From positions 1-24,337 of IMG/VR virus record IMGVR_UViG_3300035162_003068: 24,337 nucleotides of DNA; one strand, written 5' to 3'. The notes beneath the pieces are model-generated. The model was not told the DNA's origin, did not search any database, and worked only from the letters and a program-made list of their open reading frames with translations. Below, in pieces: positions 5,499 through 24,337 of this stretch. Source of the stretch: a virus. Each line of letters opens with the position of its first letter. The first letter of the stretch is position 1. Position numbers and translations under genes: made by a program.

Positions 5499-6497
5499 AT
5501 GGCAAATATTACAGCAGAAAAATTTAATAGATTAAGATCACAAATCTTGAATGTAGTTAACAACAATGACTTTAATCAAAATCCAGAACTTAATATTCAA
5601 CTAGGCGGGTATGGACAAAGTTTTGTTATTAATCCTGCTGTAACAGGTACAATTATCGGCGAAGCTGAACATAGACAATTGTATGATGCAATTGTGGCTG
5701 CTCGAGTTCACCAAATAGGCTCGTTGCCTAATACGTTAACAGCAGTTGACTTTGGTGATGTTATTGGCGACGATGCAACTTATACCCAAGATGCAAACGG
5801 CGACCTAGTTGTCGACGATGCATTGGCAGGATATGACGATTTAGAATTAGAAATTCAGTTTGCAAAAAATGGTCTAAACAATGGAATTCATGCGTTGGGA
5901 TCAAGAAGCCAATATGACAAACTTAGTACTTCAAGAAGTACTAATTGGGGAAATATCGCAACTAGTACGACTATTGATTGCGAGTTTCAAGTAGACTTCG
6001 GCAGCGTTGAAAGTGCTAGAAGATTCTGGAATACAGGCGGCGAGATTAGAATAACTGGACAGCATTTAAATACTGACGATCCTAAAAATGTATCATGGCG
6101 CGACTTATTTTCAAACTTTAGCTATTACTTAAAGGCCCGCGAAAGTGCAGGGGCAGCATCGCAAATTAATGATGGTTGGTCTGGTTTATCTAATACTTAT
6201 CAGCAAGTAGGGTATTGGTCTATTTCTACTAATCCTTTATATGCAGAAAACTATGTTACAGTCTCTGCAAAAGTAGATACATCGCTTAATAGCAGCGGAG
6301 TTGCTAGATATCTTTACATTAAAGTAAAATGTGTAGATGCAGATGTAGGCGATGGTGATAATTTTAATCCACCTATTCCGGTTGACGAAGTAGTTAAACC
6401 TGGAACTGCTATAACATTATCAGAATATCGAGCAGACACTACTTATATTAGCGCACTAACTCCAACAGTGACATTCCGTAACGGCAACACACTTTAA
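5499..6497 (+). CDS. Virion structural protein, first of two tandem paralogues
   Basis: A 332-residue protein with no catalytic motif. It carries features of a structural family I associate with marine myoviruses: an N-terminal helical stretch ending in ARVHQIGS (residues 68-75) and a central FQVDFGSVESARRFWNTGGE. The next gene has the matching motifs in the same order, with LRVHQTGS at the same residue position, so the pair arose by duplication. A 22-base near-perfect palindrome (5923-5944) lies inside the gene. AAAGG lies about 11 bases upstream of the ATG, and only six bases separate it from the preceding gene, so it is likely cotranscribed with the fibres. It is probably a tail or baseplate-associated component, but the exact location in the virion is unknown. 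Confidence 0.6.
   Translation: MANITAEKFNRLRSQILNVVNNNDFNQNPELNIQLGGYGQSFVINPAVTGTIIGEAEHRQLYDAIVAARVHQIGSLPNTLTAVDFGDVIGDDATYTQDANGDLVVDDALAGYDDLELEIQFAKNGLNNGIHALGSRSQYDKLSTSRSTNWGNIATSTTIDCEFQVDFGSVESARRFWNTGGEIRITGQHLNTDDPKNVSWRDLFSNFSYYLKARESAGAASQINDGWSGLSNTYQQVGYWSISTNPLYAENYVTVSAKVDTSLNSSGVARYLYIKVKCVDADVGDGDNFNPPIPVDEVVKPGTAITLSEYRADTTYISALTPTVTFRNGNTL
5923..5944. repeat. Near-perfect 22-base palindrome inside a structural gene
   Basis: TTAGTACTTC and GAAGTACTAA are exact reverse complements separated by two bases (AA). The stretch encodes L-S-T-S-R-S-T in the structural protein at 5499-6497, so codon-level Ser/Thr repetition could have produced it by chance. It could form a hairpin or cruciform or serve as a dimeric-protein site; nothing else supports a function. 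Confidence 0.6.
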
Positions 6498-6509
6498 TAG
6501 GAGACTTAA

Positions 6510-8018
6510 ATGTCAGTAGTAGAATCAGGAAATACGGCATCGGCAGCGCATTACAATAATTTACGAACTCGTGTGATTAATGCAGCGAGTGACTTTGGTA
6601 TTGATCTTGCTACTATTGAAGTTTATCTTGGAACAACAATGCCTGCAAAGACAGCTGGTGAATCAATTTCTAATGAAGACTACGATAAGCTATTTTTAAT
6701 AGTGTACTGGTTACGAGTACACCAAACAGGATCTGCTGATGTTGGCCTTCCAAGTCAAGCAAATAATTCTCGGTGGAACGCCGGTGACGCTATCCTAGCA
6801 GGTGATGGCTACGAATATGGCACGCCTGGGGTCCCTATACCCACCGGCGCAGGCGCAACTAAAACTGGTAACAATGATTTAGAAGAATCAATATTGGAAG
6901 CAGAAAATACCATAGGTGCACACGCTGCTAACCAGTTTAGTCTTACTAATAGCACTAGCGGCACATCTGCAGATACCAGTACTCCGACCTGGGGTGGTGG
7001 TACCAATGATAGTCCAGCTGGCGGAGGCGTAGGCGATGAGCTAGCAGGTGATAACTCTCGAGGTATGATACAACGTACCTTTTCTATAGATTTCCCATCA
7101 TCTGCCGCTAGAGAATCCTTTTTTAAATTAGGTGGCGAAGCTACATTTTACGTAAGAATGACAAACAGTAATGGCGTTCCTCGTACTTCTAATCCAGGCG
7201 GCACGAAAGCCAATTGGTGGTATAGGCATTTAAATGTAGATAATCCAATCTCTTTCAAATGTACTAATAGTATTTTTAGTACGTTATCAAATTCCTATCA
7301 ACAAATTTTTGAAAAGACAGACAGTAACAACGCCTTGTATGCTATGAACAGAACTAGACTATTAATGAGAAAGAACGCTGCTAACACAAGCATAGATGTG
7401 CGTGTTAGATGCTATGATTATGATAGGTCATTGACTGCCTGGCCTGATGCTCCTCGAGATGAAGACGTTGGCCAAAGAGTTGCAACATACGTTTCTTTGA
7501 AAAGAATTACTGCTGGAACAAATCCATTATTTAACACAGTTGGCAAAAACCCAACAATCAGTGGAACTAGTTGGACTACAAATGCTATTACTGATCAACC
7601 TGCACTAGCAGTAGGTCCAGATCCTTTTTCTGCAAGCTTTACCTCTGAAGGAACAAACGGAACTACAGTCAAAAATGTAGGAACATTTAATGTACCTGCA
7701 AATAGATGGACAATTACTCTTGATAGTATATTCTCTGCCTCTGGCTTTGTTTCAGGTTGGCTCTTGGGCTCTAGCAAAGGATCATCTGGCAATTGTAGAA
7801 TTATAATTCGTGACGGGTCGTATTCTGGGACAATTGTATATGATACAGGCATACTATTGCCTTTAGGTTTTTCCGTTCGAGGAACAACGGAAAACGGACT
7901 CATTTTTAAAACTAACAGCAATTCAAGAACATATTACGTGCAGTTTGAATCAACTGAGGCAGGCGGCCAAACAACTATGTCTTTAAGCGTAGACGGCTAT
8001 TATAACGGACCTGCATAA
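6510..8018 (+). CDS. Virion structural protein, second of two tandem paralogues with extra C-terminal domain
   Basis: A 502-residue protein. Residues 1-330 parallel the preceding 332-residue protein: LRVHQTGS at 68-75, FSIDFPSSAARESFFKLGGE in the middle, and NSYQQIF plus ALYAMN where the neighbour has NTYQQVG and PLYAEN. The paralogue has gained a Gly/Thr/Ser-rich linker (about 95-185) and a unique C-terminal region of about 160 residues, which reads as a beta-sandwich with alternating hydrophobic strands and repeated GSSKGSSG and DGSYSGT turns. This may be a receptor- or glycan-binding tip, but that is inference. The ATG at 6510 has a strong AGGAG seven bases upstream. It is the last gene of the structural block; a sigma-70-type promoter starts only eight bases after its stop. 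Confidence 0.6.
   Translation: MSVVESGNTASAAHYNNLRTRVINAASDFGIDLATIEVYLGTTMPAKTAGESISNEDYDKLFLIVYWLRVHQTGSADVGLPSQANNSRWNAGDAILAGDGYEYGTPGVPIPTGAGATKTGNNDLEESILEAENTIGAHAANQFSLTNSTSGTSADTSTPTWGGGTNDSPAGGGVGDELAGDNSRGMIQRTFSIDFPSSAARESFFKLGGEATFYVRMTNSNGVPRTSNPGGTKANWWYRHLNVDNPISFKCTNSIFSTLSNSYQQIFEKTDSNNALYAMNRTRLLMRKNAANTSIDVRVRCYDYDRSLTAWPDAPRDEDVGQRVATYVSLKRITAGTNPLFNTVGKNPTISGTSWTTNAITDQPALAVGPDPFSASFTSEGTNGTTVKNVGTFNVPANRWTITLDSIFSASGFVSGWLLGSSKGSSGNCRIIIRDGSYSGTIVYDTGILLPLGFSVRGTTENGLIFKTNSNSRTYYVQFESTEAGGQTTMSLSVDGYYNGPA
7869..7894. repeat. Perfect 9-base inverted repeat near the 3' end of a structural gene
   Basis: TTTTCCGTT (7869-7877) and AACGGAAAA (7886-7894) are exact reverse complements around an 8-base loop. 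A T5 run follows about nine bases later, which is too far away for a classical intrinsic terminator, and the element lies about 125 bases inside the coding region. Confidence 0.6.
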
Positions 8019-10548: not shown

Positions 10549-11893
10549 TTTTAAATTAAAATTAACTGATTATGAGTTTTATTTCTTAGATCAAGGTAGT
10601 CCAAATATTGAAGAAAACTTCTATGATGTAAAGAATAAAATTCCTTGGGTACAACGAGTAACTACTTTGCCTAAAACTAATTACTTTGTAATCACTGATG
10701 ACGCAAAGCTTCGATCTAATTTCTTAACAACTCCATTAATATTTGATGATACTGTAGTTAATGGTACAGTACATTGGCAGAACAAAAGCACAGTAAACAA
10801 CCTTAACTATTATACTTCGGGTATAAAGTGGGTAGGGTTAAACAAATTTGAATTTGAATTGCCATCTGTTGGTTCTAGTGTATTCCATGCTGGAACAGCA
10901 GAGCAAGCTTACGACAGCGGGTATAAAGAAATTAAAAAAATTCTTGAAGGCAATAATCTAGCAAGTATTTCTGACGCTGACAAAAAGAATGTATTGATAT
11001 GGAACACTATCGGCGCAGACGTTAAGCACGGAATTGAATGTATTCATGGCGCACATGATGCAACTAAAAAATTCTTAACAGATGACGAATACAAGTCGTT
11101 GCTATTAGCTGAACCGTTTACATATTCACAAAGCATTTTCTACAAAACAGTATATAAGAGTCCGCATCGTATTAGCAAAGGCATTAAAGAAAATACAGTT
11201 AGTCGATATGATATTGTATTCATAAGCTATAACGAACCTAATGCAGAAGAAAACTGGCAATCTTTAAAAGCAAGATTTCCTAGAGCAAAAAGAGTACACG
11301 GCATCAAAGGCATCCACCAAGCTCATATCGAAGCAGCAAAGTTGTGTACTTCACCTATGTTTTGGATTGTTGACGGAGATGCAAAGGTAGATCCTGAGTT
11401 TAAATTTACATACAAAGTTCCAGATCATCAATTAGATCATGTACATGTATGGAGAGCAAAGAATCCTATTAATGGATTAGAATATGGCTATGGAGGAGTA
11501 AAGTTATTTCCCCGAAAACTCACAATAGAAATGGATACAAGTAAGCCGGACATGACTACAAGTGTAAGTGATAAATTTAAGCCTATGAATTTAGTATCTA
11601 ACATAACTGCATTTAACACCAGTCCATTTGAAACATGGAAAGGTGCATTTAGAGAATGTGTCAAACTTGCATCTAAATCAATTGATAGGCAACACGATGA
11701 AGAAACAGAGTATAGATTAACACAGTGGCAATTTGAAGGTGCAAATCGAAGACACGGAGACTATGCACAAATGGGTGCAAAGCAAGGTCAAGAATACGGC
11801 GAACAAAATTCTAATGATACTAATGCACTTAAAAAGATTAACGACTTTGATTGGCTACTAGAGAGGTTTGAACGTGAAAATAAAAGACATTGA
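10541..11893 (+). CDS. Two-domain glycosyltransferase-like protein (internal duplication)
   Basis: 450 residues containing two copies of one domain. The C-terminal copy (about 221-420) has DIVFISYNEPNAEEN, RAKRVHGIKG, FWIVDGDAKV (D278-G-D280, a DxD-type metal/nucleotide motif), NGLEYGYGGVKLFPR, WKGAFRECVKLA and QWQFEGANRRHGDYAQMGAK. The N-terminal copy (about 10-175) shows the same order in weaker form: SPNIEENF, PWVQRV, FVITDDAK (the first Asp of DxD has become Thr), NLNYYTSGIKW and IWNTIGADVKHGIECIHGA. This suggests one catalytic and one non-catalytic or regulatory domain. The following gene is a free-standing third copy. I infer a GT-A-like transferase from the SYNEPN start and the DGD strand; the exact family is not certain. 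It overlaps its neighbours by 8 and 20 bases. Confidence 0.62.
   Translation: MSDFKLKLTDYEFYFLDQGSPNIEENFYDVKNKIPWVQRVTTLPKTNYFVITDDAKLRSNFLTTPLIFDDTVVNGTVHWQNKSTVNNLNYYTSGIKWVGLNKFEFELPSVGSSVFHAGTAEQAYDSGYKEIKKILEGNNLASISDADKKNVLIWNTIGADVKHGIECIHGAHDATKKFLTDDEYKSLLLAEPFTYSQSIFYKTVYKSPHRISKGIKENTVSRYDIVFISYNEPNAEENWQSLKARFPRAKRVHGIKGIHQAHIEAAKLCTSPMFWIVDGDAKVDPEFKFTYKVPDHQLDHVHVWRAKNPINGLEYGYGGVKLFPRKLTIEMDTSKPDMTTSVSDKFKPMNLVSNITAFNTSPFETWKGAFRECVKLASKSIDRQHDEETEYRLTQWQFEGANRRHGDYAQMGAKQGQEYGEQNSNDTNALKKINDFDWLLERFERENKRH
11861..11866 (+). promoter_or_regulatory. Ribosome binding site selecting a GTG start at 11874
   Basis: GAGAGG ends seven bases before GTG 11874 but only one base before the in-frame TTG 11868. 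The spacing favours the GTG, giving a 303-residue product that begins MKIKDIDII. Confidence 0.6.
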
Positions 11894-12785
11894 TATAATT
11901 TATCTTAGTTACGATGAGCCTAATGCAGAAGAAAATTATGCAGACTTACTAACAAAGGCTCCTTGGGCAAAACACGTTCACGGTGTTGAAGGTAGTGATG
12001 CTGCACACAAAGCCTGTGCTAGATTAAGTGAAACTAGTCGGTTTATTACTGTAGATGCAGACAATAAGATTTATGCAGACTTTTTAGAACAAGAAATAGA
12101 TTTTAAACAATATCCGTATATGAAAAATGCTGTACTAAGTTGGTGTGGGTATAATGTAGTAAACGGCTTAATGTACGGCAACGGCGGACTAAAGTGCTGG
12201 CCCAAAGACATTGTACTCGATATGAAAACGCATGAAGCTAGTGAATCTGAGGATATTGCTTCGCAAGTTGAATTTTGCTGGAATTTAGATTACATACAAA
12301 TGAATAGCTGCTATTCTAAAGTGTATAATAATGCTTCTGCTAAACAAGCCTGGCGTGCTGGGTTTCGAGAAGGTGTTAAAATGAGCCTTGATCGAGGCAC
12401 TAAGTTTAGTAGCATTACATTCAGTGAAGAAGCGTATTGGCAAAACTTACATCGATTAATGATATGGCAAATGGTAGGCGCAGATATAACCAACGGAATA
12501 TGGGCAATGTACGGTGCTAGGCAAGGGTGTTATATGACTAATCTAACAGACTGGGATTATGTACAAGTACGTGACTTTGCTTACTTAGAAACCTTATGGG
12601 AAGATGTTAAGAAGCAAATAACGCCTGACAATATTCTTAGCGAGTGTACTCGACTAGGAAAACTGTTGCATCAAACATTACAAATACCAGTAGATCAGGT
12701 CTTGTCTGTAAACCAAAGTAAGATGTTTAAATATAGTTATACTAACACAGACAGAACTGGCCAAGGATTTATTGACATTGAATAA
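11874..12785 (+). CDS. Glycosyltransferase-like protein, free-standing copy of the duplicated domain
   Basis: 303 residues from GTG 11874, selected because GAGAGG is seven bases upstream. It matches the C-terminal half of the preceding protein throughout: DIIYLSYDEPNAEEN, AKHVHGVEG, FITVDADNKI (D61-A-D63), NGLMYGNGGLKCWP (98-110), AWRAGFREGVKMS and IWQMVGADITNGIWAMYGAR. The DxD and the GGxKxxP loop are both intact, so it is probably catalytic. A further C-terminal tail of about 65 residues, after about 238, is helical and lacks counterparts in the neighbour. It overlaps the preceding gene by 20 bases and the radical SAM gene by 14, so the three are tightly coupled. Function as a sugar transferase is inferred from fold-like motifs and context; donor and acceptor are unknown. 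Confidence 0.62.
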   Translation: MKIKDIDIIYLSYDEPNAEENYADLLTKAPWAKHVHGVEGSDAAHKACARLSETSRFITVDADNKIYADFLEQEIDFKQYPYMKNAVLSWCGYNVVNGLMYGNGGLKCWPKDIVLDMKTHEASESEDIASQVEFCWNLDYIQMNSCYSKVYNNASAKQAWRAGFREGVKMSLDRGTKFSSITFSEEAYWQNLHRLMIWQMVGADITNGIWAMYGARQGCYMTNLTDWDYVQVRDFAYLETLWEDVKKQITPDNILSECTRLGKLLHQTLQIPVDQVLSVNQSKMFKYSYTNTDRTGQGFIDIE

Positions 12786-14160
12786 ACTAGTAAAACGACT
12801 TGCACGTAAGCTAAAGATTACTAAAGATCCTATAGATCGCATGACTGAAGTTAAGCAACTTACAGATACAGTCTCGCCTACCTTTTGTTTAGCTAAGTGG
12901 CATCATACTACTATATATTTACAGACAGGCGAAACACACAGTTGTTATCATCCAGCACCGCATAAAATTCCTTTAGCAGAAATAGAAAACAATCCAGGTG
13001 CATTGCATAATACACTAGAAAAAAAGCAACAGCGTAAGCAAATGCTACAAGGCGAAAAGCCCAGCGGTTGTCAGTATTGCTGGAATATTGAGTGCTTGGG
13101 CAAAGATTATATTAGTGATCGTCATGAACGTAACAGCGGCATATACACAAAACAGCGTCTTGCTGAGATTGTAGACAACGATTGGAACTTTGATGTGAAT
13201 CCAGAATACATCGAAGTTAGCTTTGGTAACGAGTGCAACTTAAAGTGCGGATATTGTCACCCTAAAGCGTCAAGTAGTTTCTATAAAGAAATTGAAAAAT
13301 ATGGTCCGTATAATATGGTTAAAAATCATACACAGCATATTGACAAATTAAATATCTACAAAAAAGAAGAAGAAAATCCTTATGTTGCAGCCTGGTGGGA
13401 ATGGTGGCCTGAAGTTAGTAAGACATTAAACATTCTGCGTATAACTGGAGGTGAACCATTACTACAAAAAAGCACCTGGAAATTGCTCGAAGATTTAGAT
13501 AATAATCCTAAGCCGAACTTAGAAATCAATATTAATAGTAATCTTGCTATTAAACCTATTCTTGTAGAACGTCTCACAGCTAAAGTAAACAAGTTAATTA
13601 AAGAAAAGAAGATCAAACGATTTAAATTATTCACTAGTTTAGATACTTGGGGAGCACCTGCAGAGTATATTAGAACTGGACTAGATCTAAAAGTGTGGGA
13701 AACTAACTTTAACACATGGATGACAAAAACAGATCAGCCTATAACTTTTATGGTTACATTTAATGTATTATGCGTAACTACATTTCAGTCATTGCTTGAA
13801 AAGTTCTTAGAATGGAGGGAGCAGTATCAAGATGGATCTGTAAGAATACGATTTGATACTCCGTACTTAAAAGAGCCGTTACAATATGATATGAATATCT
13901 TGCCTAAAAGCTTTATATCGTATATGGATTCTCATTTACAGTTTATTGCAGATAATCTAGACGATAATAACGCCAATAAGTTTAGTAAATTAGAATATGA
14001 AAAATTTAGACGGGTAGTTGAATATATGCGAACAACAACTTACTCAGAAGAAAAGCTTATTGAAGGAAGAAGAGACTTTGTCGCTTGGTTTCAAGAACAT
14101 GATATTCGCAGACAGACAAATTTTGCCCAAACCTTTCCTGATTTAAAAGACGTTTTTTGA
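12772..14160 (+). CDS. Radical SAM enzyme with N-terminal twitch-type auxiliary cluster domain
   Basis: 462 residues from TTG 12772 (AAGGA four bases upstream; TTG 12778, ten bases away, is the alternative). The core CNLKCGYC (C155, C159, C162) is the CX3CX2C motif that binds the 4Fe-4S cluster and SAM; ILRITGGEPLLQ (GGEP 226-229) is the SAM amino-group motif. Ahead of the core, C39, C58, C100, C103 and C108 in FCLAKWHHT, SCYH and GCQYCWNIEC form a half-SPASM ('twitch') module, here N-terminal rather than C-terminal. That arrangement matches the N-terminal-twitch radical SAM family, known to me from marine phage genomes and without an established substrate. A second member with the same layout lies at 21638-23029. 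It ends the + strand operon and overlaps the 3' end of the convergent minus-strand gene by 18 bases. Confidence 0.85.
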   Translation: MTLNKLVKRLARKLKITKDPIDRMTEVKQLTDTVSPTFCLAKWHHTTIYLQTGETHSCYHPAPHKIPLAEIENNPGALHNTLEKKQQRKQMLQGEKPSGCQYCWNIECLGKDYISDRHERNSGIYTKQRLAEIVDNDWNFDVNPEYIEVSFGNECNLKCGYCHPKASSSFYKEIEKYGPYNMVKNHTQHIDKLNIYKKEEENPYVAAWWEWWPEVSKTLNILRITGGEPLLQKSTWKLLEDLDNNPKPNLEININSNLAIKPILVERLTAKVNKLIKEKKIKRFKLFTSLDTWGAPAEYIRTGLDLKVWETNFNTWMTKTDQPITFMVTFNVLCVTTFQSLLEKFLEWREQYQDGSVRIRFDTPYLKEPLQYDMNILPKSFISYMDSHLQFIADNLDDNNANKFSKLEYEKFRRVVEYMRTTTYSEEKLIEGRRDFVAWFQEHDIRRQTNFAQTFPDLKDVF

Positions 14161-15375
14161 GTAATACTGATCATTAGGCAAGGGCTTGCACTTAATACTT
14201 GCTTGTGATATTTCGATATATCGTAAAAACTCACTAACTGTATAATCGTTATACGCTGCTCGTTTGTAATTGTATTCGAGTACTTCAGTATTCTTCATTG
14301 ACCATTCTATTTGTTTAGATCTAGTCATTTTGTTTAAGTTTCCACAAACTCTAATTAGTTCTTTCTCTAGCTTGCTCCAGCGTTTAACAATATCGGGTTC
14401 AAAATCAAACTCGTAGTCAAACCAATCTGTATAAAGCTTGTATCCTAGTCTTTGTAGATTATAATTTTGCCCAGTTTGTCCCCAAATAATTACAGGAGTT
14501 TTTTGTACTATTGGCTTAAATGTCTTTTCACTATAAAATAAGCTAGTTTCACTCCAGTCACTTTGCATAGTTTCAGATGTAAGATTAAACAATACTTTAT
14601 TATGTAACCCAATACCAAGATCATTTGCCCAGTTAGTTTCAAAATCAGCAGTATCGACTATAAGCGGAGTGTTACTTTGTAAGAATTGGCGCATTGGGTT
14701 AGAATATAGGCTATTCCCTTTATAATCATTTTCAGTAACAACGTCATGGCTTAGTAAGCCGTACTTTGCAATGTCAGCTTGATGGAGTCTATAAGAACAG
14801 TAGCTTCTCCAAAAGCGATTTCTCCTACTTAAATTTAAATAATATTTCCCATCGTAATATGTATTAAGATTATGTTCTCTGTCTACAACTCGTGCCTTTT
14901 CCTTCATCATTTGTTTTTGAAATGTGTCCCAGTGCATTATTTCAATTATATTAATAGGACTACTTCTAGTTGATAGTGTGTTAAAGTATAATCTAAAGTT
15001 TGCCTTTTCTCTAAGATTTCCACTAAGAAAGCTAATCATTTTTGGATCGATGTTATTCTTTATTGCACTATTGTATAATGCAATAGCAACAGGCTGATCT
15101 TCAGGAGCCCATCCTTCGTGTGTGCCGTCTAGAACAAATGTACATTCTTTATTTCTAAGTTTTTCTAATGCGTCTTCAGTTAGTGTAGAAAATAAATCAG
15201 GATTATGTTTATGTGTATTTTGATATGAGTAGAAACAGTGCATTACTGGCATTCTTTCATATTCCCCTTTCTTCATTATTGAAATATGTTTCTTATAATG
15301 ATGAAATGCGCCAGGCTCGCTGTGACATTCTCTAAAGTAACTGTCGTTAGTAGTCCAGTTTTGTAAGTACTGCAT
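14143..15375 (-). CDS. Uncharacterised protein, possibly a GT-B-like glycosyltransferase
   Basis: 410 residues on the minus strand; ATG at 15375-15373 with a weak GGATA seven bases upstream. Two recurrent motifs of a conserved phage/bacterial family are visible: LNLSRRNRFWRSYCSYRLHQ (181-200) and FYSEKTFKPIVQKTPVIIWG (280-299), followed by RLGYKLYTDWFDYEFD. The SEKxFxxI...P-IIxG segment resembles the donor-binding 'EK' loop of GT10/exostosin-type GT-B enzymes, so a sugar transferase acting with the surrounding glycan genes is plausible. This is inference; no confirmed family name. The N-terminal 170 residues are Tyr/His-rich with no clear motif. It is the only minus-strand gene between two + strand operons, and its 3' end overlaps the preceding radical SAM gene by 18 bases, leaving no room for a terminator. 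An exact TATAAATA lies 30 bases upstream. Confidence 0.62.
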   Translation of the reverse strand: MQYLQNWTTNDSYFRECHSEPGAFHHYKKHISIMKKGEYERMPVMHCFYSYQNTHKHNPDLFSTLTEDALEKLRNKECTFVLDGTHEGWAPEDQPVAIALYNSAIKNNIDPKMISFLSGNLREKANFRLYFNTLSTRSSPINIIEIMHWDTFQKQMMKEKARVVDREHNLNTYYDGKYYLNLSRRNRFWRSYCSYRLHQADIAKYGLLSHDVVTENDYKGNSLYSNPMRQFLQSNTPLIVDTADFETNWANDLGIGLHNKVLFNLTSETMQSDWSETSLFYSEKTFKPIVQKTPVIIWGQTGQNYNLQRLGYKLYTDWFDYEFDFEPDIVKRWSKLEKELIRVCGNLNKMTRSKQIEWSMKNTEVLEYNYKRAAYNDYTVSEFLRYIEISQASIKCKPLPNDQYYSKNVF

Positions 15376-15405
15376 AATTAATTATCCATGTGTATATATT
15401 TAAAG

Positions 15406-15413
15406 TATTTATA
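15406..15413 (-). promoter_or_regulatory. T4-type late promoter (exact TATAAATA) for the minus-strand gene
   Basis: The minus strand reads TATAAATA from 15413 to 15406, an exact T4 late -10 element, 30 bases before the ATG at 15375. It is oriented correctly and located in a 114-base gap, which is more convincing than the many partial matches. A divergent one-mismatch copy for the next + strand gene lies 43 bases away. Confidence 0.55.
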
Positions 15414-15455
15414 GAGCTAATTTATTCATATAACAAAGTCTGATATATATTAAGT

Positions 15456-15463
15456 AATAAATA
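15456..15463 (+). promoter_or_regulatory. Candidate T4-type late promoter element (AATAAATA) for the + strand operon
   Basis: AATAAATA (7 of 8 match to TATAAATA) lies 26 bases before the nucleotide-sugar dehydrogenase ATG and ahead of its AAGGA site at 15479-15483. Together with the exact minus-strand element at 15406 it would make a divergent late promoter pair. Confidence 0.42.
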
Positions 15464-15489
15464 ACTGCGTACATAACTAAGGATTTAAT

Positions 15490-16719
15490 ATGAACATAGG
15501 ATTTATTGGAACTGGAAAACTTGGAATGCCTTGCGCAGAAGCAATGGCTAAAAAAGGACACGATGTTTCGGGATACGATGTTGCAAAGCGCACTAGTTAT
15601 GACATAACAATGTTTACTTCTATCGAAGGTGCAGTACAAGGCAGAGATATTGTGTTCGTTGCAGTGCCTACTCCTCACGATCCTTCCTATGACGGTAGAG
15701 CTCCAACTGCACACCTAGATCCGAAAGACTTTAATTATGATATTGTAAAAGATGTGTTAGCAGAAGCAAACAAGCATATGACAAAGGATCAATTACTAGT
15801 GCTTATTAGTACAGTATTACCTGGGACAACTCGTAAACAGTTTGTTGACCTTACTTTTAATACACGATTTATATATAATCCTTATTTAATTGCTATGGGC
15901 AGTGTTGCTTGGGATATGATTAATCCTGAGATGGTAATGATAGGCACAGAGGACGGAAGTAAGACAGGCGATGCAAAGCAGCTTGTGGATTTTTATAAGA
16001 CTATTATGGAAAATAGTCCTCGCTATATTATAGGAACGTGGGACGAGTGCGAATGTATTAAAGTTTTCTATAATACGTTTATTAGTGCAAAAATTGGCTT
16101 AGTTAATATGATACAAGATGTTGCCGAAAAGCAAGGAAATATAAATGTTGATGTTGTAACAGATGCCCTAGCATATAGTGACAAGCGTATTATGGGTCCG
16201 CAATATATGACAGCAGGAATGGGCGATGGTGGCGCATGTCACCCACGTGATAATATTGCACTACGTTATATGGCACAGGAACTAGGATTAGGCTACGATA
16301 TGTTTGATGCTATTATGAACGCTCGAGAAATTCAAGCAGAGAATCTTGCACTTAAACTAGTAGAGCTAGCAAATGAATATAATTACCCTATTTACATTCA
16401 CGGAAAAGCATACAAACCCGGCGTTGAATATTGTGACGGCAGTTATAGTATATTAGTTGGACATTATTGTAATGAGCATGGATTTGCTCCTACCTATGTT
16501 GATCCTATGACAGGCGATACAGAATATCCTAAAGAATCTTGTATAATGTTAATGGCGCATAGTGCTAGTACTACATACAAATATATACAAGAAGAGGGTG
16601 ATGATACTGATAAAGTATATTGCAATATTCCAGGAGGCAGTATAGTTGTTGATCCGTGGCGCAAGTTTGTATCAAATACAAGCACAGTAATTTATTATGG
16701 AAACACTAGACATCAATAA
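15490..16719 (+). CDS. Nucleotide-sugar (UDP-glucose/GDP-mannose type) 6-dehydrogenase
   Basis: 409 residues. The enzyme family oxidises C6 of a nucleotide sugar to the uronic acid with two NAD+. GFIGTGKLGMP (residues 4-14) is the Rossmann NAD motif, with D30 (SGYDV) at the ribose-binding position. LISTVLPGTT (105-114) is the conserved STVxPGTT strand. ECIKVFYNTFISAKI carries K191 and N195 of the catalytic linker helix. GDGGACHPRDN holds C250, matching the thiohemiacetal Cys of GGxCFPKD in this family. KAYKPGVEYCDGS matches the C-terminal KPxVxDxRxS domain. Domain order and length agree with the family, so it is likely active; the exact sugar cannot be told. AAGGA six bases upstream supports the ATG. 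It overlaps the next radical SAM gene by 23 bases and probably supplies a uronic acid donor to the glycosyltransferases here. Confidence 0.85.
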   Translation: MNIGFIGTGKLGMPCAEAMAKKGHDVSGYDVAKRTSYDITMFTSIEGAVQGRDIVFVAVPTPHDPSYDGRAPTAHLDPKDFNYDIVKDVLAEANKHMTKDQLLVLISTVLPGTTRKQFVDLTFNTRFIYNPYLIAMGSVAWDMINPEMVMIGTEDGSKTGDAKQLVDFYKTIMENSPRYIIGTWDECECIKVFYNTFISAKIGLVNMIQDVAEKQGNINVDVVTDALAYSDKRIMGPQYMTAGMGDGGACHPRDNIALRYMAQELGLGYDMFDAIMNAREIQAENLALKLVELANEYNYPIYIHGKAYKPGVEYCDGSYSILVGHYCNEHGFAPTYVDPMTGDTEYPKESCIMLMAHSASTTYKYIQEEGDDTDKVYCNIPGGSIVVDPWRKFVSNTSTVIYYGNTRHQ

Positions 16720-17710
16720 TTATCAAGACATACCTTGGGATAATATTACCGAGTTTGGCCAAAAGACCCTCCTAAAGAGCCATCTTTTTACGGTTTCGTG
16801 GATCCTGGCTAGATTTTGTAATTATAACTGCTCTTATTGCTGGCCTTACGCTAGATCTAGTACCCCGGACCACCAAGATCTAGAATTGTACCTAAGCACA
16901 CTAGATAGTATCAAAGCACAGGCTCGTGCAAACGGATTCAAAGATTTCCACTTTAGTTTCTCAGGAGGTGAGCCTACAGCTTATAAATACTTTGGAGAGA
17001 TCATAGATCATTATTGCAGTGATGCAACACCCGAGTATCAAAGTATCCACATGACTACAAACCTGTCCCCTGGGAGTAAATGGTGGAATAGGTGGATACA
17101 ATCAACTAATACGTTACAACGTAGAAGTATCACAGCAAGCTATCACGCAGAGTTTGCTAATGAACAAGAGTTTGGAGATAAGTGTCTTCAATTAATGAAA
17201 GCAGGTGTGTATGTTACAATCAACCAAGTTATGGTTCCAGAAATGTTTCAAGAACTTTTCGAACGCTTACAACGATTTGCCGCCAGAGGCATTAATGTTA
17301 CTGTCAAACCCCAGTCTGACCCAACAGCCTCTCATGTGGTACATGGTTACACAGCAGAACAGTTGGACAAACTACAAACAGGATTCCCTCAAAGAATCCC
17401 AGACGAATACAAAAAATTAATACCACTATTACAAGTAGAACTTGCTGACGCCCAAGGCAACACTTATTATGTAGATCAAGCAGAACGCTTCAATGCATTT
17501 GGCTTTAATAAGTTTAAAGGATGGGAATGTAACGCAGGATACCAAGGATGTGTTATCCGCGGCAATGAAGTCAAGCGCAGCTACAGTTGTCACGATGAAC
17601 CGTTGGGCACGTTAGACGGCGGATTTGAGCTCTTTAAGGCACCACGTAAATGTATTACTCCTAGCTGTGTAAGTAGTGCAGATAGTAAATTACCAAAGAG
17701 AAAAATATGA
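16697..17710 (+). CDS. Radical SAM enzyme with C-terminal SPASM-like cysteines
   Basis: 337 residues. CNYNCSYC (C41, C45, C48) is the CX3CX2C cluster motif and SFSGGEPTAY (GGEP 90-93) the SAM-binding motif. The C-terminal third has GWECNAGYQGC (C278, C285), YSC (C298), and KCITPSC (C319, C324), consistent with at least one auxiliary 4Fe-4S cluster. Its organisation matches the enzyme at 23026-23991: both share TTN/NTN plus a WW pair, then FNxFxGWEC-like residues. Such SPASM enzymes commonly modify peptides or sugars; the substrate here is unknown. The ATG at 16697 lacks a good ribosome site and overlaps the dehydrogenase by 23 bases, so translation is probably coupled. The first third uses C/G-ending codons more often than its neighbours by eye (for example ACC CCG GAC CAC near 16863), which may mark more recent transfer. 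Confidence 0.83.
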   Translation: METLDINNYQDIPWDNITEFGQKTLLKSHLFTVSWILARFCNYNCSYCWPYARSSTPDHQDLELYLSTLDSIKAQARANGFKDFHFSFSGGEPTAYKYFGEIIDHYCSDATPEYQSIHMTTNLSPGSKWWNRWIQSTNTLQRRSITASYHAEFANEQEFGDKCLQLMKAGVYVTINQVMVPEMFQELFERLQRFAARGINVTVKPQSDPTASHVVHGYTAEQLDKLQTGFPQRIPDEYKKLIPLLQVELADAQGNTYYVDQAERFNAFGFNKFKGWECNAGYQGCVIRGNEVKRSYSCHDEPLGTLDGGFELFKAPRKCITPSCVSSADSKLPKRKI

Positions 17711-18300
17711 AAATAGATATACAAGATGTATTATTTTGGATGGATGCTATTCGAAACAGTGAAGATCAGTATCGCACACTAGAAAGTTTTTGGAAAGGGC
17801 AAGTTAACAGTAAAGTTTGGCTTGCAGAAAACTTAGTAGGATTTGTGCCTGTCAAACCGTTAGACATTGTGATATACGGTGGTTGGAATGGAGTACTTGC
17901 AAGTATATTATTTAACTCTAACATCAACGTAAACAGTATTACAAGTGTAGACATAGATCCCGGATGTGAAGAAATTGCAAACACAGTTAATAAGCGTTAT
18001 GAAATAGAAGGACGATTCCGTGCAGTAACAGCAGACATGTGTTTTTATAAACCTAAAGCAGATGTAATTATAAACACAAGTTGCGAGCATATTACACAAT
18101 ATCAATATGATACTTGGTTATCTAATCAACCAGACAACGCAGTGTATGTACTACAAAGTAATAACTATTTTCAACACAAAGAACATATACGCTGTGCAAT
18201 TGACTTAGATGACTTTACTAAAATGAGTAGAATTAAGCCTTACTTGCGTAGGAAGTTGGATACACAATTATACGAACGCTATATGATAATAGGCTCATAA
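17707..18300 (+). CDS. Small class I SAM-dependent methyltransferase-like protein
   Basis: 197 residues. DIVIYGGWNGVLASIL (53-68) resembles methyltransferase motif I, although the usual GxGxG reads GGWNG, and ITSVDIDPGCEEIAN (78-92) matches the motif II strand with acidic D82/D84 for the SAM ribose. DVIINTSCEHI (119-129) sits where motif IV lies, but lacks the DPPY/NPPY of N-methyltransferases. It overlaps the radical SAM gene by ATGA, which suggests the two act together, perhaps methylating the radical SAM product. The 3' end overlaps the convergent halogenase gene by six bases. The substrate is unknown; an alternative is a non-catalytic SAM-binding protein. Confidence 0.62.
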   Translation: MKIDIQDVLFWMDAIRNSEDQYRTLESFWKGQVNSKVWLAENLVGFVPVKPLDIVIYGGWNGVLASILFNSNINVNSITSVDIDPGCEEIANTVNKRYEIEGRFRAVTADMCFYKPKADVIINTSCEHITQYQYDTWLSNQPDNAVYVLQSNNYFQHKEHIRCAIDLDDFTKMSRIKPYLRRKLDTQLYERYMIIGS

Positions 18301-20502
18301 ACTGTCTATTTGTTTTTTAGTAATACGGAATATATTCTTTCTAGGGTCTACTTGATACGGTAAGAAAAACTTACCGAGTTCTTTTGATCCCCATATACTA
18401 ATTTCTTCTAGATTCATATCAACATACGGAGTCAAGTTGCAGCCTTTGTTACATTGAAAATACATAATACTATTATTTGTTTTTAGCAAATTTTTAGAAC
18501 AATCTTTTAAGAAAAACTTCCATTCACTAACTCCCCAGACATCGACAATATCTTGATGAGGAGGAAATAACCATGTAGACGTTCCAACAGTACTGCGAAA
18601 ACTAACAACTAGATCAAACTTTTGTTCAAATAAATTATTAACACTAACATTCTTATATACAAGATAATGTTTTGGGTTTATATTTAATAACTCGTATCCC
18701 TGTTCGTAACGACTATCCGGATGCCTGCCATCACACGATTGTACATTATGTCCGTACATTTGACTAATATATGGAAAGAATCCTGCACCTGTCCCAATTT
18801 CTAGTATATTAAGCGGTAAAGATTTTTGCAACTCTAGTATATGCGCCGAGTTTAACTGTTCACTAATAGTTTCTTGTGCATTAATTAAGTACTTGTTATT
18901 ACTAGCTTTGCCTATACTAGTGATTAAATCTAATCCGCCTATTTGATCGATGACATTTTCTACACTTAGTTCTTTATGTGCATCTTTAAAGATATTATTT
19001 TTATGCCAGGTATAATTATTTTCACATAATGAAGAAATGTATCTGTGTTTATTATAATCAAACTCAAGCTGCATCTTTGCTAATATTTTATCTGCTTTGC
19101 TAGATTTATTTCGGTCATTAAATTCTATATTCCAATGCAACGCAAGTTGTATCCACATGTAATCAGGAAACATTGTGTATCCTGTTGAAGCACCTAGCAT
19201 ACTATTCTTTTCATCATAAATTTTGTCTATAACTAATGCTGCATGATTATCTGCTTTGCCTATTGTTTGCATATCTGTCCAAAATTTAGTATCTGTTCTA
19301 GGACTAAGAGTGTAATGTACTAAAATAAAATCAGCAATATCGTCAATGGTATGTGCCATCTTATTATTATATGATTTATAATCGTTTTCATTTAATACTT
19401 CGTGCAATCTTCTAATACTAGTTACTATAGTATATAACGCATTTGCTTCGAGTGGCTCAACAAATCCACATGTTAGACCAACAGCTACACAGTTTCCTTT
19501 AGCAAACGTTTCTAATCTCTCAGGCTTCCATTTAATTAATCTTGGTTCGTTTTTAGGAGTTTTAATTTGTTTTAGAAAATGCTCTTTAGCATCGTCATCG
19601 CTAACGTGCTTAGAACTGTAACAATAACCATTGCCCATTCTATGATATAGTGCTATATTAAAGCGCCAGCCGTGTGGCTCGGCAATGCTTTGTGTGTAAT
19701 TGGCCATCTCGGTTTCAGGGTCGTCATAATCAGTCTGACACACCCAGGCACTATCTATCGGATGGTTGTATGATTTCGTTTCCCATCCTAGAGCATTGAC
19801 TAATACTCTACTAAACCCAGTACAGTCAATAAACCAATCTGCGGTTATTACAGATCCGTTGTCTAACTCGATTGAACTAATATTTTCTTCTTGTGTATTT
19901 ACTTTAACAACCTCGGCAATTATGTTAGTAATATTAGGAGCAATCTTAGTCCTAATGTAAGTACCCACAAGTTCTGCATTAATGTGGTGTGCATGGCTGT
20001 GTATTTGATTTAACAGATATTCATTGTCTTTATATGGAGAAACATTATTTTCCATATAATGAAACTGCGGACAAAAGTATTGATCAAACCTTTTATACAC
20101 ATTATTTTTCACAAAATGATTTAATATATCTATAGTTCTCACCTGGCTAGTATCTACAACAAAGTCTTCGTTGGCTATATTTTTAGATACGTCTTTGTAA
20201 AGATAGTTTGCTGGAGTAGTATAGTTAAAACTAAAATATGACTCGTCGTTTGTACCGCACCAGTTAATAAACTTATTTGCATACTTATGAATAGCACCAG
20301 TTTCTTTCATCCAGTCAGTTTCGTCTATTCCAATTTCTTTAAAGAAATCTCGAACGTGCGGAGTAACACTTTCGCCAACTCCGATTATTGGAATAGTTGG
20401 AGATTCGACAACTGTGACATTTTCACTGCCGTGATATTTTGCAAGATACGCAGCAGTCATCCATCCTGCTGTGCCGCCACCGATTATTACTATTTTTCTC
20501 AT
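18295..20502 (-). CDS. Flavin-dependent halogenase-like protein fused to a methyltransferase domain
   Basis: 735 residues from ATG 20502 (TTG 20505 is a less likely start; no clear ribosome site). Residues 1-500 form a tryptophan-halogenase-type FAD domain: VIIGGGTAGWM (5-15) binds FAD, GVGESVTP (41-48) is the family's second motif, and K73 in AIHKYANKFINW aligns with the catalytic Lys79 of PrnA/RebH. E352 in EPLEANAL aligns with the catalytic Glu. Two signatures differ: WxWxIP reads WRFNIA (279-284), and the EPLES-T-G halide site reads EPLE-A-N-A. GNGYCYSS is retained. Residues 540-735 carry ILEIGTGAGFFPYI (566-579), then FDLVVSF, a class I methyltransferase. Halogenases have been characterised in marine phage (VirX1, cyanophage Syn10), but I know of no such fusion. 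No separate flavin reductase is visible. Function as a halogenase or other flavin oxidase is open. Confidence 0.8.
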   Translation of the reverse strand: MRKIVIIGGGTAGWMTAAYLAKYHGSENVTVVESPTIPIIGVGESVTPHVRDFFKEIGIDETDWMKETGAIHKYANKFINWCGTNDESYFSFNYTTPANYLYKDVSKNIANEDFVVDTSQVRTIDILNHFVKNNVYKRFDQYFCPQFHYMENNVSPYKDNEYLLNQIHSHAHHINAELVGTYIRTKIAPNITNIIAEVVKVNTQEENISSIELDNGSVITADWFIDCTGFSRVLVNALGWETKSYNHPIDSAWVCQTDYDDPETEMANYTQSIAEPHGWRFNIALYHRMGNGYCYSSKHVSDDDAKEHFLKQIKTPKNEPRLIKWKPERLETFAKGNCVAVGLTCGFVEPLEANALYTIVTSIRRLHEVLNENDYKSYNNKMAHTIDDIADFILVHYTLSPRTDTKFWTDMQTIGKADNHAALVIDKIYDEKNSMLGASTGYTMFPDYMWIQLALHWNIEFNDRNKSSKADKILAKMQLEFDYNKHRYISSLCENNYTWHKNNIFKDAHKELSVENVIDQIGGLDLITSIGKASNNKYLINAQETISEQLNSAHILELQKSLPLNILEIGTGAGFFPYISQMYGHNVQSCDGRHPDSRYEQGYELLNINPKHYLVYKNVSVNNLFEQKFDLVVSFRSTVGTSTWLFPPHQDIVDVWGVSEWKFFLKDCSKNLLKTNNSIMYFQCNKGCNLTPYVDMNLEEISIWGSKELGKFFLPYQVDPRKNIFRITKKQIDSL

Positions 20503-20514
20503 CAAATATATTTA

Positions 20515-20527
20515 GTAGTTAAACTAC
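20515..20527. repeat. Short inverted repeat in the divergent halogenase / radical SAM gap
   Basis: GTAGTT and AACTAC flank one A, forming a perfect 13-base palindrome 13 bases upstream of the halogenase start. It could be an operator or a small 5' hairpin; equally it may be chance in AT-rich DNA. The 68-base gap has no convincing ribosome site or sigma-70 promoter for either flanking gene. Confidence 0.35.
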
Positions 20528-20570
20528 CAGATAACTTACTTAACTGATAAATTTACAATAAGTACAATAC

Positions 20571-21638
20571 ATGTTTACATTTAATCAATTAGAAAATATC
20601 CATTTAGAAATTACAAATCGCTGCCAAGCTAGTTGTCCAATGTGCAGCCGTAATATTCATGGCGGCTTAGAAAATCCATTGATTAAAAATCAAGATTGGA
20701 CTATAGCAGACTTTAAACATATCCTAAGTAACGAAGTATTGCAGCAATTAAAAGGGTTCTACTTTTGTGGAAACTTTGGCGATCCTATTATTAATAATGA
20801 TCTAATAGAAATGTGTCAACATAGTACAGATGTTAATCCTAATTTGTATATCAGAATACATACTAACGGTGGCGCACGGAGTACAGATTGGTGGAAGAGA
20901 CTTGCAAAAGCATTACCGCCAGCACACAATGTTATTTTCGCAATTGACGGATTAGCAGACACGCACAGTTTATATCGTATTGGAACTGACTTTAATAAAG
21001 TACTAGATAACGCCAAAGCATTTATTAATGCAGGCGGCACAGCAGAATGGGCGTTTATTAAATTTAAACACAACGAGCATCAACAAACCGCAGCAGAAGC
21101 ACTAGCAAAAACACACGGATTTGCTAGATTTACTTATAAAGATAGTGCAAGATTTGTTGCTACTGAACAGTTTCCGGTTTATGATGCAGACGGTAATACA
21201 ACACGGTATTTAGAACCACCTACTGGCAGCAAAATTAATCTTATCACACAAGACGTAATTGACAATTATAAAGACATTGTAGCTGCAAGTGAAATTGATT
21301 GTTATGTAACCCAGACAAAAGAAATTTACATAGACGCATATAAGAAAATTATGCCCTGTTGTTTCTTAGCAAGTATTCCTTATAATCATGCTGCTGCAAA
21401 TGATGCTACAAAAACTATTAGATTAGAAATTGAACAACAGTATTCCAATTTAGTAAATGATTTAGGAAATACTAATGCGTTAGTAAATACTATACAATCA
21501 GTAATAGACTCCGATTCTTGGCAAAAAGTATGGCACAAGTATTGGGGTGCAGAAAAATTAATCACATGTGCTAGAACGTGTGGTGTAAATAAACTTAGTA
21601 AACCCAAAGATCAGTTTATAGACAAGGTAGAATTGTAA
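20571..21638 (+). CDS. Radical SAM / SPASM enzyme
   Basis: 355 residues. CQASCPMC (C18, C22, C25) is the CX3CX2C motif directly after LEITNRC, as in SPASM peptide- and sugar-modifying enzymes. The GGEP position reads CGNFGDP (65-71), a known variant. AIDGLADTHSLYRIGTDF (123-140) matches the conserved DGLxDTxxxYRIG strand. The C-terminal part has IDC (C243), a CC pair (C262-C263) in IMPCCFL, and CARTC (C332, C336), i.e. at least five cysteines for an auxiliary cluster. The substrate is unknown. No ribosome site is seen before the ATG, which begins a + strand run of four radical SAM genes diverging from the halogenase. Its stop overlaps the next start by one base (TAATG). Confidence 0.85.
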   Translation: MFTFNQLENIHLEITNRCQASCPMCSRNIHGGLENPLIKNQDWTIADFKHILSNEVLQQLKGFYFCGNFGDPIINNDLIEMCQHSTDVNPNLYIRIHTNGGARSTDWWKRLAKALPPAHNVIFAIDGLADTHSLYRIGTDFNKVLDNAKAFINAGGTAEWAFIKFKHNEHQQTAAEALAKTHGFARFTYKDSARFVATEQFPVYDADGNTTRYLEPPTGSKINLITQDVIDNYKDIVAASEIDCYVTQTKEIYIDAYKKIMPCCFLASIPYNHAAANDATKTIRLEIEQQYSNLVNDLGNTNALVNTIQSVIDSDSWQKVWHKYWGAEKLITCARTCGVNKLSKPKDQFIDKVEL

Positions 21639-23029
21639 TGTCAGATTTAGAAAAGTACCAAGCCGAAATAGCAAAAGTAAGCGGCACTCCTACATTTTGT
21701 GTTCTGCCCTGGATACACTTTGCTACTCGTCCTAACGGCGATATGCGACTGTGTTGTAGTGCAAACGCAAGCGGAGCAGCAACAGGCGATCACGAAGTAG
21801 GACTAGTAAAGATGGATGACGGTCGTCCTGCAAACTTTGGTAAACATACTCCGATGGAAGCATGGAATAATGAATACATGAAAGGTGCTAGGCGTGCAAT
21901 GCTTGCTGGAGAAGTTCCTGCAAGTTGTACAAAATGCTTTAAAGAAGAAAGCCAAGGTATTGTAAGCAAACGTATTTGGGAAACAGGTACGTGGCATCAA
22001 GACGATAATGGTGTAGACATTCCTGAACTTATACGTCAAACAAAAGAAGATGGCACAGTTCCAGAAGCACTAACATATTTAGATCTACGCTTAGGACATA
22101 CTTGCAATATTAAGTGTGTAATGTGCAGTCCGCATGATTCGAGTAAGTGGGTAGCTGATCATAAAAAGTTAATTCCTGTACTACAAGATCCTGAAGTAAA
22201 AAGACAAATGCAATGGGATCGAAAAGAATTTAATAACAAGTGGCATGAGAAAGATACATTCTGGGAAGAAATGTATGCACAGATTCCTAACCTAAGACAA
22301 GTGTACTTTGCTGGAGGCGAACCTCTAATGATTAAAGAACACAAAATGTTTATTGAAGAAATACTGCGCCAAGGGTATCAAGATAAGATACTACTACGTT
22401 ACAATTCAAACGGTTTACTTGTAGATGAAGACTTAATTGAAATGTGGAGCAAGTTTAAAAAAGTTAAGTTTGCAGTAAGCATGGACGCAAGCCACGGTCG
22501 CGATGAATATATTCGTTATCCTACTAACTGGGATACTGTAGAAAAGACTTTGCATATGTTAGATAATACGCCTGACAATATCCAAACAAGTTTAGCTACA
22601 GCAATACAAATATTCAACGTAAAGCATTTACCTGACTTTATGAAGTGGAAGCTAGAAAGCGGATTTAAAAAGCTAAACAGTGGAACAATGCCAGGTGGTG
22701 TACAAATGGGTGGTGGATTGGTTAATATGCACTTACTGTACATTCCAACTTTCCTTAGTATACAAATACTACCAGAACACGACAAGCAAGAAGTTAAAGA
22801 ACGCTTTATGGATTTTAAAGATTACTTGTGGAAAAACTATAGACAAGACGACGACTTTTGGAAGCACAATCCTTATGGATGGAATCGTTGGGAAGCAGTA
22901 ATGAATCATATGAACGCAGCAGACAACAGTCACTTGTTACCGGGCTTTAAAGAATATACTAATAAGCTAGATAACATTCGTAACTTAAATGCAGCAACAG
23001 TATTTCCGGAACTTTCTCATTTATTATGA
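21638..23029 (+). CDS. Radical SAM enzyme with N-terminal twitch-type auxiliary cluster domain, second copy
   Basis: 463 residues, almost the length of the related 462-residue protein at 12772. The N-terminal auxiliary cluster domain has FCVLPWIHF (C21), LCC (C39, C40) and SCTKC (C97, C100). The core motif is CNIKCVMC (C156, C160, C163) followed by QVYFAGGEPLMI (GGEP 226-229). The core and GGEP residue numbers coincide with or differ by one from the first copy, showing a shared architecture, although identity between them is low. KFAVSMDASHGRDEYIRYP matches the conserved strand after the GGEP. A long C-terminal region (about 340-463) with aromatic and charged helices is specific to this family. 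The reaction is unknown. It starts at the TAATG junction and overlaps the next gene by ATGA, so the four genes are probably translated in sequence. Confidence 0.86.
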   Translation: MSDLEKYQAEIAKVSGTPTFCVLPWIHFATRPNGDMRLCCSANASGAATGDHEVGLVKMDDGRPANFGKHTPMEAWNNEYMKGARRAMLAGEVPASCTKCFKEESQGIVSKRIWETGTWHQDDNGVDIPELIRQTKEDGTVPEALTYLDLRLGHTCNIKCVMCSPHDSSKWVADHKKLIPVLQDPEVKRQMQWDRKEFNNKWHEKDTFWEEMYAQIPNLRQVYFAGGEPLMIKEHKMFIEEILRQGYQDKILLRYNSNGLLVDEDLIEMWSKFKKVKFAVSMDASHGRDEYIRYPTNWDTVEKTLHMLDNTPDNIQTSLATAIQIFNVKHLPDFMKWKLESGFKKLNSGTMPGGVQMGGGLVNMHLLYIPTFLSIQILPEHDKQEVKERFMDFKDYLWKNYRQDDDFWKHNPYGWNRWEAVMNHMNAADNSHLLPGFKEYTNKLDNIRNLNAATVFPELSHLL

Positions 23030-23991
23030 TTAAGCAAATACAAAATAACCAAGATCCTAATATGGTGCGTATAGAATACATGCCAGGTAATACATGTAAT
23101 CATAAATGTCATTACTGCTTTCCAGGAAGCAACGAAGGCGATATGAAATGGCCAGATGTTGAACTTGTAAAGAAAAATCTAGGACACTTACTAAAACACT
23201 TTGAATCGCAAGGAAAAACTAAAAGTAATATTTTCATTATAGGCGGCGAGCCTACTTTATGGAAAGGATTAGAAGACTTGTGCAAATATCTCAAGAGTAA
23301 TTTTGACTGCATAATCGAAATGAATACTAACGGCACTCGTAAACCAAATTGGTGGAAAAAGCATGCTATGTATTTTGATCGTGTAGGAGTAAGTGTACAC
23401 AACGAATATGCTAACATAGACCATTTAATTAACGTGTGTGATATATTATATGACCAAGGCACATTTATTAACGCTGATGTTTTAATGGATCCTAACGATT
23501 TTGAAAAATGTGTAGACATTATTGAAAAATTAAAGACTAGTAAATACGCCTGGCCCATTATTGCTAAAGTTGTACACTTTAATGGTATGCATAGATACAC
23601 TGACACACAGTTAGAATTCTTTAATGATGGCATTAAGAGATATCCTACACAAGAATGGTACGACTCTGCATCAAAGTTACCTAGAACAGAAATTACTATT
23701 ACTAAAGATAACAACGAAACTATAACAGTTAATAGTGATAGTTGGTTAACTAGGAATAAACTAAATTATTTTAATGGCTGGGAGTGCAATCTAGGAGTAG
23801 ACTTTTTAAAGATATTTCCTAATGGGAATATTACTGGAAATTGTCAACAATCAATATTAGGTAACCAGAACTTATATGACAGCGAATTTACTAATACCTT
23901 TATGCCTAGTATTTTGCCTATTATATGTTCTAAAAATATTTGCGGATGCAGTGAAGAAATAAATTGCAATAAAAGGAAAATAAATGTTTAA
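23026..23991 (+). CDS. Radical SAM enzyme related to the 16697-17710 protein
   Basis: 321 residues. CNHKCHYC (C24, C28, C31) is the CX3CX2C motif; FIIGGEPTLW (GGEP 73-76) follows after about 40 residues. EMNTNGTRKPNWWKK and VSVHNEYAN parallel the TTN...WWNRW and ASYHAEFAN segments of the 337-residue protein upstream. NYFNGWECN (C254), GNC (C273), ICSKNICGC (C301, C306, C308) and C314 give a C-terminal SPASM-like cluster; the first of these also matches that protein. The two are thus paralogues separated by several kilobases. The ATG overlaps the preceding stop by ATGA. The next gene overlaps by eight bases. Substrate unknown; membership in the same modification pathway as the neighbours is inference. 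Confidence 0.83.
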   Translation: MIKQIQNNQDPNMVRIEYMPGNTCNHKCHYCFPGSNEGDMKWPDVELVKKNLGHLLKHFESQGKTKSNIFIIGGEPTLWKGLEDLCKYLKSNFDCIIEMNTNGTRKPNWWKKHAMYFDRVGVSVHNEYANIDHLINVCDILYDQGTFINADVLMDPNDFEKCVDIIEKLKTSKYAWPIIAKVVHFNGMHRYTDTQLEFFNDGIKRYPTQEWYDSASKLPRTEITITKDNNETITVNSDSWLTRNKLNYFNGWECNLGVDFLKIFPNGNITGNCQQSILGNQNLYDSEFTNTFMPSILPIICSKNICGCSEEINCNKRKINV

Positions 23992-24337
23992 CACTCTTGA
24001 ACCGGTTAACCCAAGACAGCAATTTCAAATTGCGTGGGAAAGCACACTTAAATGTAACCTTGATTGTAGTTACTGTGGTGACGGCCACGACAACAGACAG
24101 CCGCATCCACCATTAGGTGAATGTTTAGACACTGTAGATTTCATTTGCGATTACATATCAGTTATTATGAAAACTCGAAAGATTAAAGAAGCTAGTCTTA
24201 ATATCCAAGGAGGCGAAAGTCTTTTTCATCCTAGCATTTTAAAAATATTGCAATACTCAAATCAAAAATCAAAATCATTAGACTGGACGTTGTACATTAA
24301 TAGCATTACTAATGCAGTAGTAAAAGACAAAGTTTGG
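23984..24337 (+). CDS. Radical SAM enzyme, 3' end outside window
   Basis: 118 codons are visible from ATG 23984 before the window ends, so the gene is 3'-truncated by the edge. AAGG six to ten bases upstream supports the start, which overlaps the previous gene by eight bases. CNLDCSYC (C24, C28, C31) is the CX3CX2C motif preceded by IAWESTLK. The SAM motif reads LNIQGGESLFHP, GGES rather than GGEP, which is seen in some family members. The stretch after it (ILQYSNQ, LYINSITNA) fits the next TIM-barrel strand. Whether it has an auxiliary cluster domain cannot be judged. It is the sixth radical SAM enzyme of the window and the fourth of the terminal run. Confidence 0.82.
   Translation, partial: MFNTLEPVNPRQQFQIAWESTLKCNLDCSYCGDGHDNRQPHPPLGECLDTVDFICDYISVIMKTRKIKEASLNIQGGESLFHPSILKILQYSNQKSKSLDWTLYINSITNAVVKDKVW

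Follow-up and report, generated by a model that had tools for sequence, protein, structure and literature searches.

A marine-type virus contig carries a halogenase-family domain and a putative methyltransferase domain in one reading frame

Introduction

Can a single viral reading frame hold both a flavin-dependent halogenase (FDH) and a methyltransferase (MT), and if so, how did the two come to share one chain? The question is raised by an open reading frame (ORF) of 735 residues in a marine-type virus contig of 24,337 bases (IMG/VR record IMGVR_UViG_3300035162_003068), the whole of which was analyzed and is referred to below as the window. The first and last ORFs run off the window, so the contig is probably a fragment open at both ends. 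Its left part carries tail-fibre genes, and its right part carries radical-SAM and other metabolic genes.

Results

Architecture of the fused reading frame

The ORF and the features discussed below are located as follows.

18295–20502, minus strand: whole fused ORF, 735 aa plus stop, with the ATG at 20502–20500
18976–20502, minus strand: FDH domain (PF04820), residues 1–509, from Pfam, phrog_2928 and homology to the related viral contig L002
20284–20286, minus strand: K73 codon, whose residue aligns with RebH's catalytic Lys
19447–19449, minus strand: E352 codon, whose residue aligns with RebH's catalytic Glu and is followed by A353-N354-A355 where RebH has S-T-G
18973–18975, minus strand: codon 510, join of the ancestral genes, where the blastn blocks to L002 abut at 18975/18974
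18298–18972, minus strand: putative class I SAM-dependent MT domain, residues 511–735, from homology
18781–18804, minus strand: MT motif I, LEIGTGAG, residues 567–574, with glycines invariant in six homologues
18730–18732, minus strand: D591, the acidic residue that follows MT strand 2, invariant in six homologues
17707–18300, plus strand: convergent neighbour gene of 197 aa, which shares 6 bp at its 3' end with the fused ORF

A single two-domain frame of 735 residues had been predicted without a strand; it lies on the minus strand, begins with ATG and is uninterrupted by stops, while the plus strand over 18295–20502 has stops throughout and no long frame. There is neither a stop nor a frameshift at the join. 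Both halves align to their relatives within one frame, which speaks to the earlier concern about a frameshift, and the joining of two overlapping genes by one is rejected on this ground. Two full-length homologous domains sharing one frame is far beyond chance.

The N-terminal half is a halogenase-family domain

Residues 3–454 match the Pfam Trp_halogenase profile with an E-value of 2e-95 and 320.8 bits against a cut-off of 21, and residues 3–482 match phrog_2928 (E 1.7e-100). The stand-alone 519-aa halogenase of L002 is 82% identical to this half (pairwise dN 0.11, dS 0.63), and RebH, PrnA and VirX1 are clear homologues. The GGGTAGW stretch occupies residues 8–14, in which GGGTAG (residues 8–13) conforms to the GxGxxG FAD motif and G9 and G10 are invariant. 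K73 and E352 are invariant across five aligned viral homologues (alignment A2). The original prediction of a halogenase-type domain from GGGTAGW, K73 and E352 is thus upheld by the Pfam and phrog_2928 matches and the alignment with RebH.

Two halogenation-linked features differ in the viral proteins. The fused ORF has WRFNIA (residues 279–284) at the position of the WxWxIP motif of characterised halogenases, and the pattern throughout the viral clade is W-x-F-x-[IL]-[GAS]. The Fx.Px.Sx.G tunnel motif, which we infer to fall on the FxEPLESTG stretch (motif from PMC8407142), is likewise altered, with FVEPLEANA in the fused ORF against FVEPLESTG in RebH, and EPLEANA or EPMEANA replaces EPLESTG across the viral clade. 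According to a review, Fx.Px.Sx.G is perhaps general in active halogenases, and some active FDHs lack WxWxIP, so that the latter motif is not strictly required (PMC8407142). Because the viral clade departs from both features, halogenation is to be named with caution; the label halogenase is given by homology only, and the reaction is plausible but unproven. The WxFx[IL][GAS] and E-A-N-A stretches of the clade may mean a different reaction or a different halide site.

The C-terminal half is a divergent putative methyltransferase

Residues 511–735 gave nothing above the cut-off against the Pfam and PHROGs profiles. This half is 62% identical to the stand-alone 227-aa genes of L002, L003 and L004. 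A plasmid protein of Pseudodesulfovibrio that carries a class I SAM methyltransferase annotation was matched to it by tblastn (E 1e-8) and by hhalign (99.2%), and this protein itself matches Methyltransf_23 at 5e-6, which gives an indirect link to a recognised family. Furthermore, a profile of six MT sequences matched PDB 1ve3 (E 3e-4) and the SAM methyltransferase 3dh0 (E 0.0017). The GxGxG of motif I corresponds to G570-T-G572-A-G574, and D591 presumably binds the ribose of SAM, as we assume from the family. We therefore take residues 511–735 to be a divergent class I methyltransferase, and the earlier reading of the C-terminal part from ILEIGTGAG is borne out by motif I together with homology to an annotated methyltransferase.

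The structure predictions were weak, with an AlphaFold mean pLDDT of 49 for the MT half alone and 61 for the full chain. Foldseek with the MT-half model returned mostly methyltransferases as best matches, none of them below E 0.02, and the fold search with the full-chain model returned only halogenases among the top matches. The methyltransferase fold is backed by sequence and not by structure. A distant MT homologue (29%) was also observed at 5548–6609 of L062 in a Methylophilaceae MAG, near a gene that reads as a putative N-acetylneuraminate-synthase-like one.

The two halves are separate genes in related viruses

Eight related viral contigs were found first, and 36 in all with the alignment query. 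In L002–L004 and L007, the halogenase (518–519 aa) and the MT (ORFs of 227–238 aa) are separate genes on one strand, with identities to the two halves of 82% and ~62% in L002–L004 and of 76% and 58% in L007. The two genes of L002 are spaced by 3,284 bp (~3.3 kb) holding four genes, which encode a DUF6875-like protein, a 206-aa protein, a class III aminotransferase and an amidinotransferase. By blastn, the segments 6003–7525 (83%) and 10810–11426 (71%) of L002 cover the fused ORF and meet at a single base. At the join, about 10 C-terminal residues are missing from the FDH, and the MT is complete but for its start codon. Tblastn of the four intervening genes and of the SAM decarboxylase, 2OG and GDSL genes gave no match elsewhere in the window. 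The meeting point of the two blocks, at the native C-terminus of one gene and at the start codon of the other, supports a fusion by deletion.

The same junction could have been produced by an assembler that joined two genes belonging to a single virus or to two viruses that occur together, in which case no such protein exists. The join has been seen in a single assembled contig so far, since a degenerate 32-base pattern across it was found in no other viral contig of a collection from which near-identical records may be left out. The divergence of the two halves is also discordant: they are 82% and 62% identical to L002, against 76% and 70% between L002 and L007 themselves. The closest match of the window halogenase is L002, whereas the window MT stands at about the same distance from L002 and from L007. 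This discordance fits mosaic evolution and also a chimera. However, no more than 6–8 identical bases are common to the surroundings of the two ends in the relatives, too few to merge k-mers, and the join keeps the frame and coincides with the ends of both genes. A second rearrangement, again at a gene boundary, lies on the other flank of the MT, which there meets the convergent 197-aa gene; the homologue of this gene in the relatives stands farther from the methyltransferase, across genes absent from the window. The contig therefore differs from an L002-like genome by more than a single false join. The genes flanking the fused ORF are homologous to the same relatives. An assembly chimera is accordingly unlikely in our judgement.

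Another way to read the locus is that one frame gives two enzymes, with a separate methyltransferase started internally. An in-frame ATG is present at residue 477, about 33 residues ahead of the MT, but it is inside the conserved C-terminal region of the halogenase with only a weak purine-rich stretch upstream, and the native MT start has been lost. From residue 478 to residue 557 the frame contains no start codon, which leaves the MT without a close start of its own, so that a separate product is unlikely, and we regard internal initiation as very improbable.

The 197-aa neighbour (17707–18300) carries a SAM-binding-like glycine motif, IVIYGGWNG, and is 67–68% identical in the relatives; the Pfam profile search gave no family match for it.

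The fused arrangement is derived

In outgroups with 59–63% halogenase identity (L031–L033, L035, L036, L038, L039, L055 and L057), a DUF6875-like gene and an amidinotransferase gene lie downstream of the halogenase. The order halogenase–DUF6875-like–amidinotransferase is therefore ancestral, and the arrangement in the window is derived, probably by deletion. The converse history, an ancestral fusion split by insertion in the relatives, is disfavoured, as the outgroups already show this order.

The region is prone to loss and fusion events, as seen from two kinds of case. In L005, L006 and L008 (10805–10969), only 54 aa of the MT survive, located between the genes for the amidinotransferase and the SAM decarboxylase, and in L035 (2615–4591), a halogenase of the same clade is fused in frame to the next gene, DUF6875-like, as a chain of 658 aa. 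The MT was found in none of 29 further halogenase records (0/29), and most viruses keeping this halogenase lack the MT or have lost it. The pairing is therefore local to the nearest clade, and FDH and MT are not obligate partners. The original prediction had gone further and proposed a two-step enzyme with both reactions on the same acceptor; this part is less well supported, as the halves are separate in the nearest relatives and the MT is missing from most halogenase carriers.

These losses bear on whether the fusion is instead an intermediate of decay, that is, a real fusion in a cassette that is being lost, with one or both domains without function. Of the cassette, the window has no DUF6875-like, 206-aa, aminotransferase, amidinotransferase, SAM decarboxylase or 2OG gene, which may have left the enzyme without its pathway, and the MT is decaying in the sister viruses L005, L006 and L008. 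Against this, all 735 codons are open, the FAD motif, the Lys and Glu, SAM motif I and the Asp have all been preserved, and the missing genes could sit beyond the 24-kb fragment. We consider a decay intermediate unlikely.

The cassette around this halogenase clade was observed at 5490–13018 of L002 and also in L003–L008, L031–L033, L035, L036, L038, L039, L051, L052, L054, L055 and L057. Its core consists of the DUF6875-like protein and the amidinotransferase, whose best PDB match is HsvA (E 1e-24), with a class III aminotransferase in most; the nearest clade adds a SAM decarboxylase, 2OG oxygenases and the methyltransferase. The cassette looks like a small-molecule pathway, perhaps acting on a polyamine.

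The fusion is rare among the sequences surveyed

No second FDH–MT chain was detected in the 36 related viral contigs, in 78 phage records or in a survey of Pseudomonadota genomes. The 78 phage records with a match are all below 60% identity, and none of them (0/78) covers 80% of the query. A widespread fusion family was rejected, as the join pattern was found in 0 viral contigs and the MT-only and profile scans gave separate genes only. Bacterial FDH–MT chains were rejected as well: the six longest frames among the PF04820 matches listed from 398 Pseudomonadota genomes proved to be upstream extensions only, with 484–499 aa from the FAD motif to the stop.

Discussion

Formation and possible chemistry of the fused protein

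Collectively, we find it somewhat probable that the locus is an in-frame fusion born by deletion, which would give a two-domain protein with two-part chemistry. A deletion or equivalent recombination would have removed four genes (~3.3 kb by the L002 arrangement) from a metabolic cassette of a marine-type tailed phage, joining the 3' end of the halogenase-family gene in frame to codon 2 of the downstream methyltransferase gene, and translation would then yield one two-domain chain. In the RebH/PrnA family, FADH2, O2 and halide are activated through a Lys with a Glu as base. By analogy, the N-terminal domain would take FADH2 from a separate reductase, react it with O2 and probably halide, and deliver the activated halogen to a small molecule through K73, E352 acting as the general base. 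The C-terminal Rossmann domain would transfer a methyl group from SAM to an acceptor, possibly the same molecule.

Comparison with known systems

The fungal enzyme AoiQ of Aspergillus oryzae has 1014 aa, with an FDH N-terminal part and a functional SAM-binding, O-methylating C-terminal part; it acts on diaporthin isocoumarins, for which both halogenation and methylation have been reported (PMC9144378, PMC8407142). Further FDH–MT homologues occur in fungal dia clusters, and one species has separate genes, ngvE and ngvF (2026, PMC13301986). The viral fusion resembles AoiQ in layout only, with an N-terminal FDH and a C-terminal SAM methyltransferase in one chain, and both have separate-gene versions in relatives, namely ngvE/ngvF for the fungal chain and L002-type genes for the viral one. 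In contrast, AoiQ is fungal and longer than the viral protein, whose two domains became fused inside a viral cassette. Since the viral fusion derives from separate viral genes, common descent of the fusion with AoiQ is unlikely. AoiQ demonstrates that a chain of this layout can be bifunctional. The original prediction had described the fusion as unfamiliar, but such chains are known from fungi: the FDH–MT layout is not new, and the viral setting is new, on one record.

Among viral proteins, VirX1 (Cyanophage Syn10; PDB 6qgm) and other cyanophage 'tryptophan halogenases' belong to PF04820 and are similar to the FDH part in fold and length, but they are single-domain, unlike the viral fusion. 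A 530-aa Syn10 halogenase of VirX1's length has WVWNIP and EPLESTG, whereas the window clade has WRFNIA and EPLEANA. The halogenase::DUF6875-like fusion of L035 comes from the same halogenase clade with a different partner domain and is an independent event. KrmI (FDH-ThiF) and XanH (FDH-flavin reductase) also combine an FDH with an accessory domain (PMC8407142), but with other partner domains and from non-viral sources.

More doubtful is the fuller reading, that one in-frame deletion made a viral bifunctional enzyme for a halogenated or oxidised and methylated small molecule, working without the other cassette enzymes, as the first viral example of an AoiQ-like layout independent of the fungal one. 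If the fusion is real and active, it would be a second, independent FDH–methyltransferase chain, and the persistence of unfused precursors in sister viruses would make the fused and separate forms a directly testable pair. Comparing these viruses also brings to light a conserved cassette centred on this halogenase clade.

In the surrounding part of the window (12772–24337), six radical-SAM-like genes occur within 12 kb, at 12772, 16697, 20571, 21638, 23026 and 23984, five of them called by Pfam and the last by blastp to a radical-SAM homologue. A UDP-glucose dehydrogenase-like gene and the fusion lie among them.
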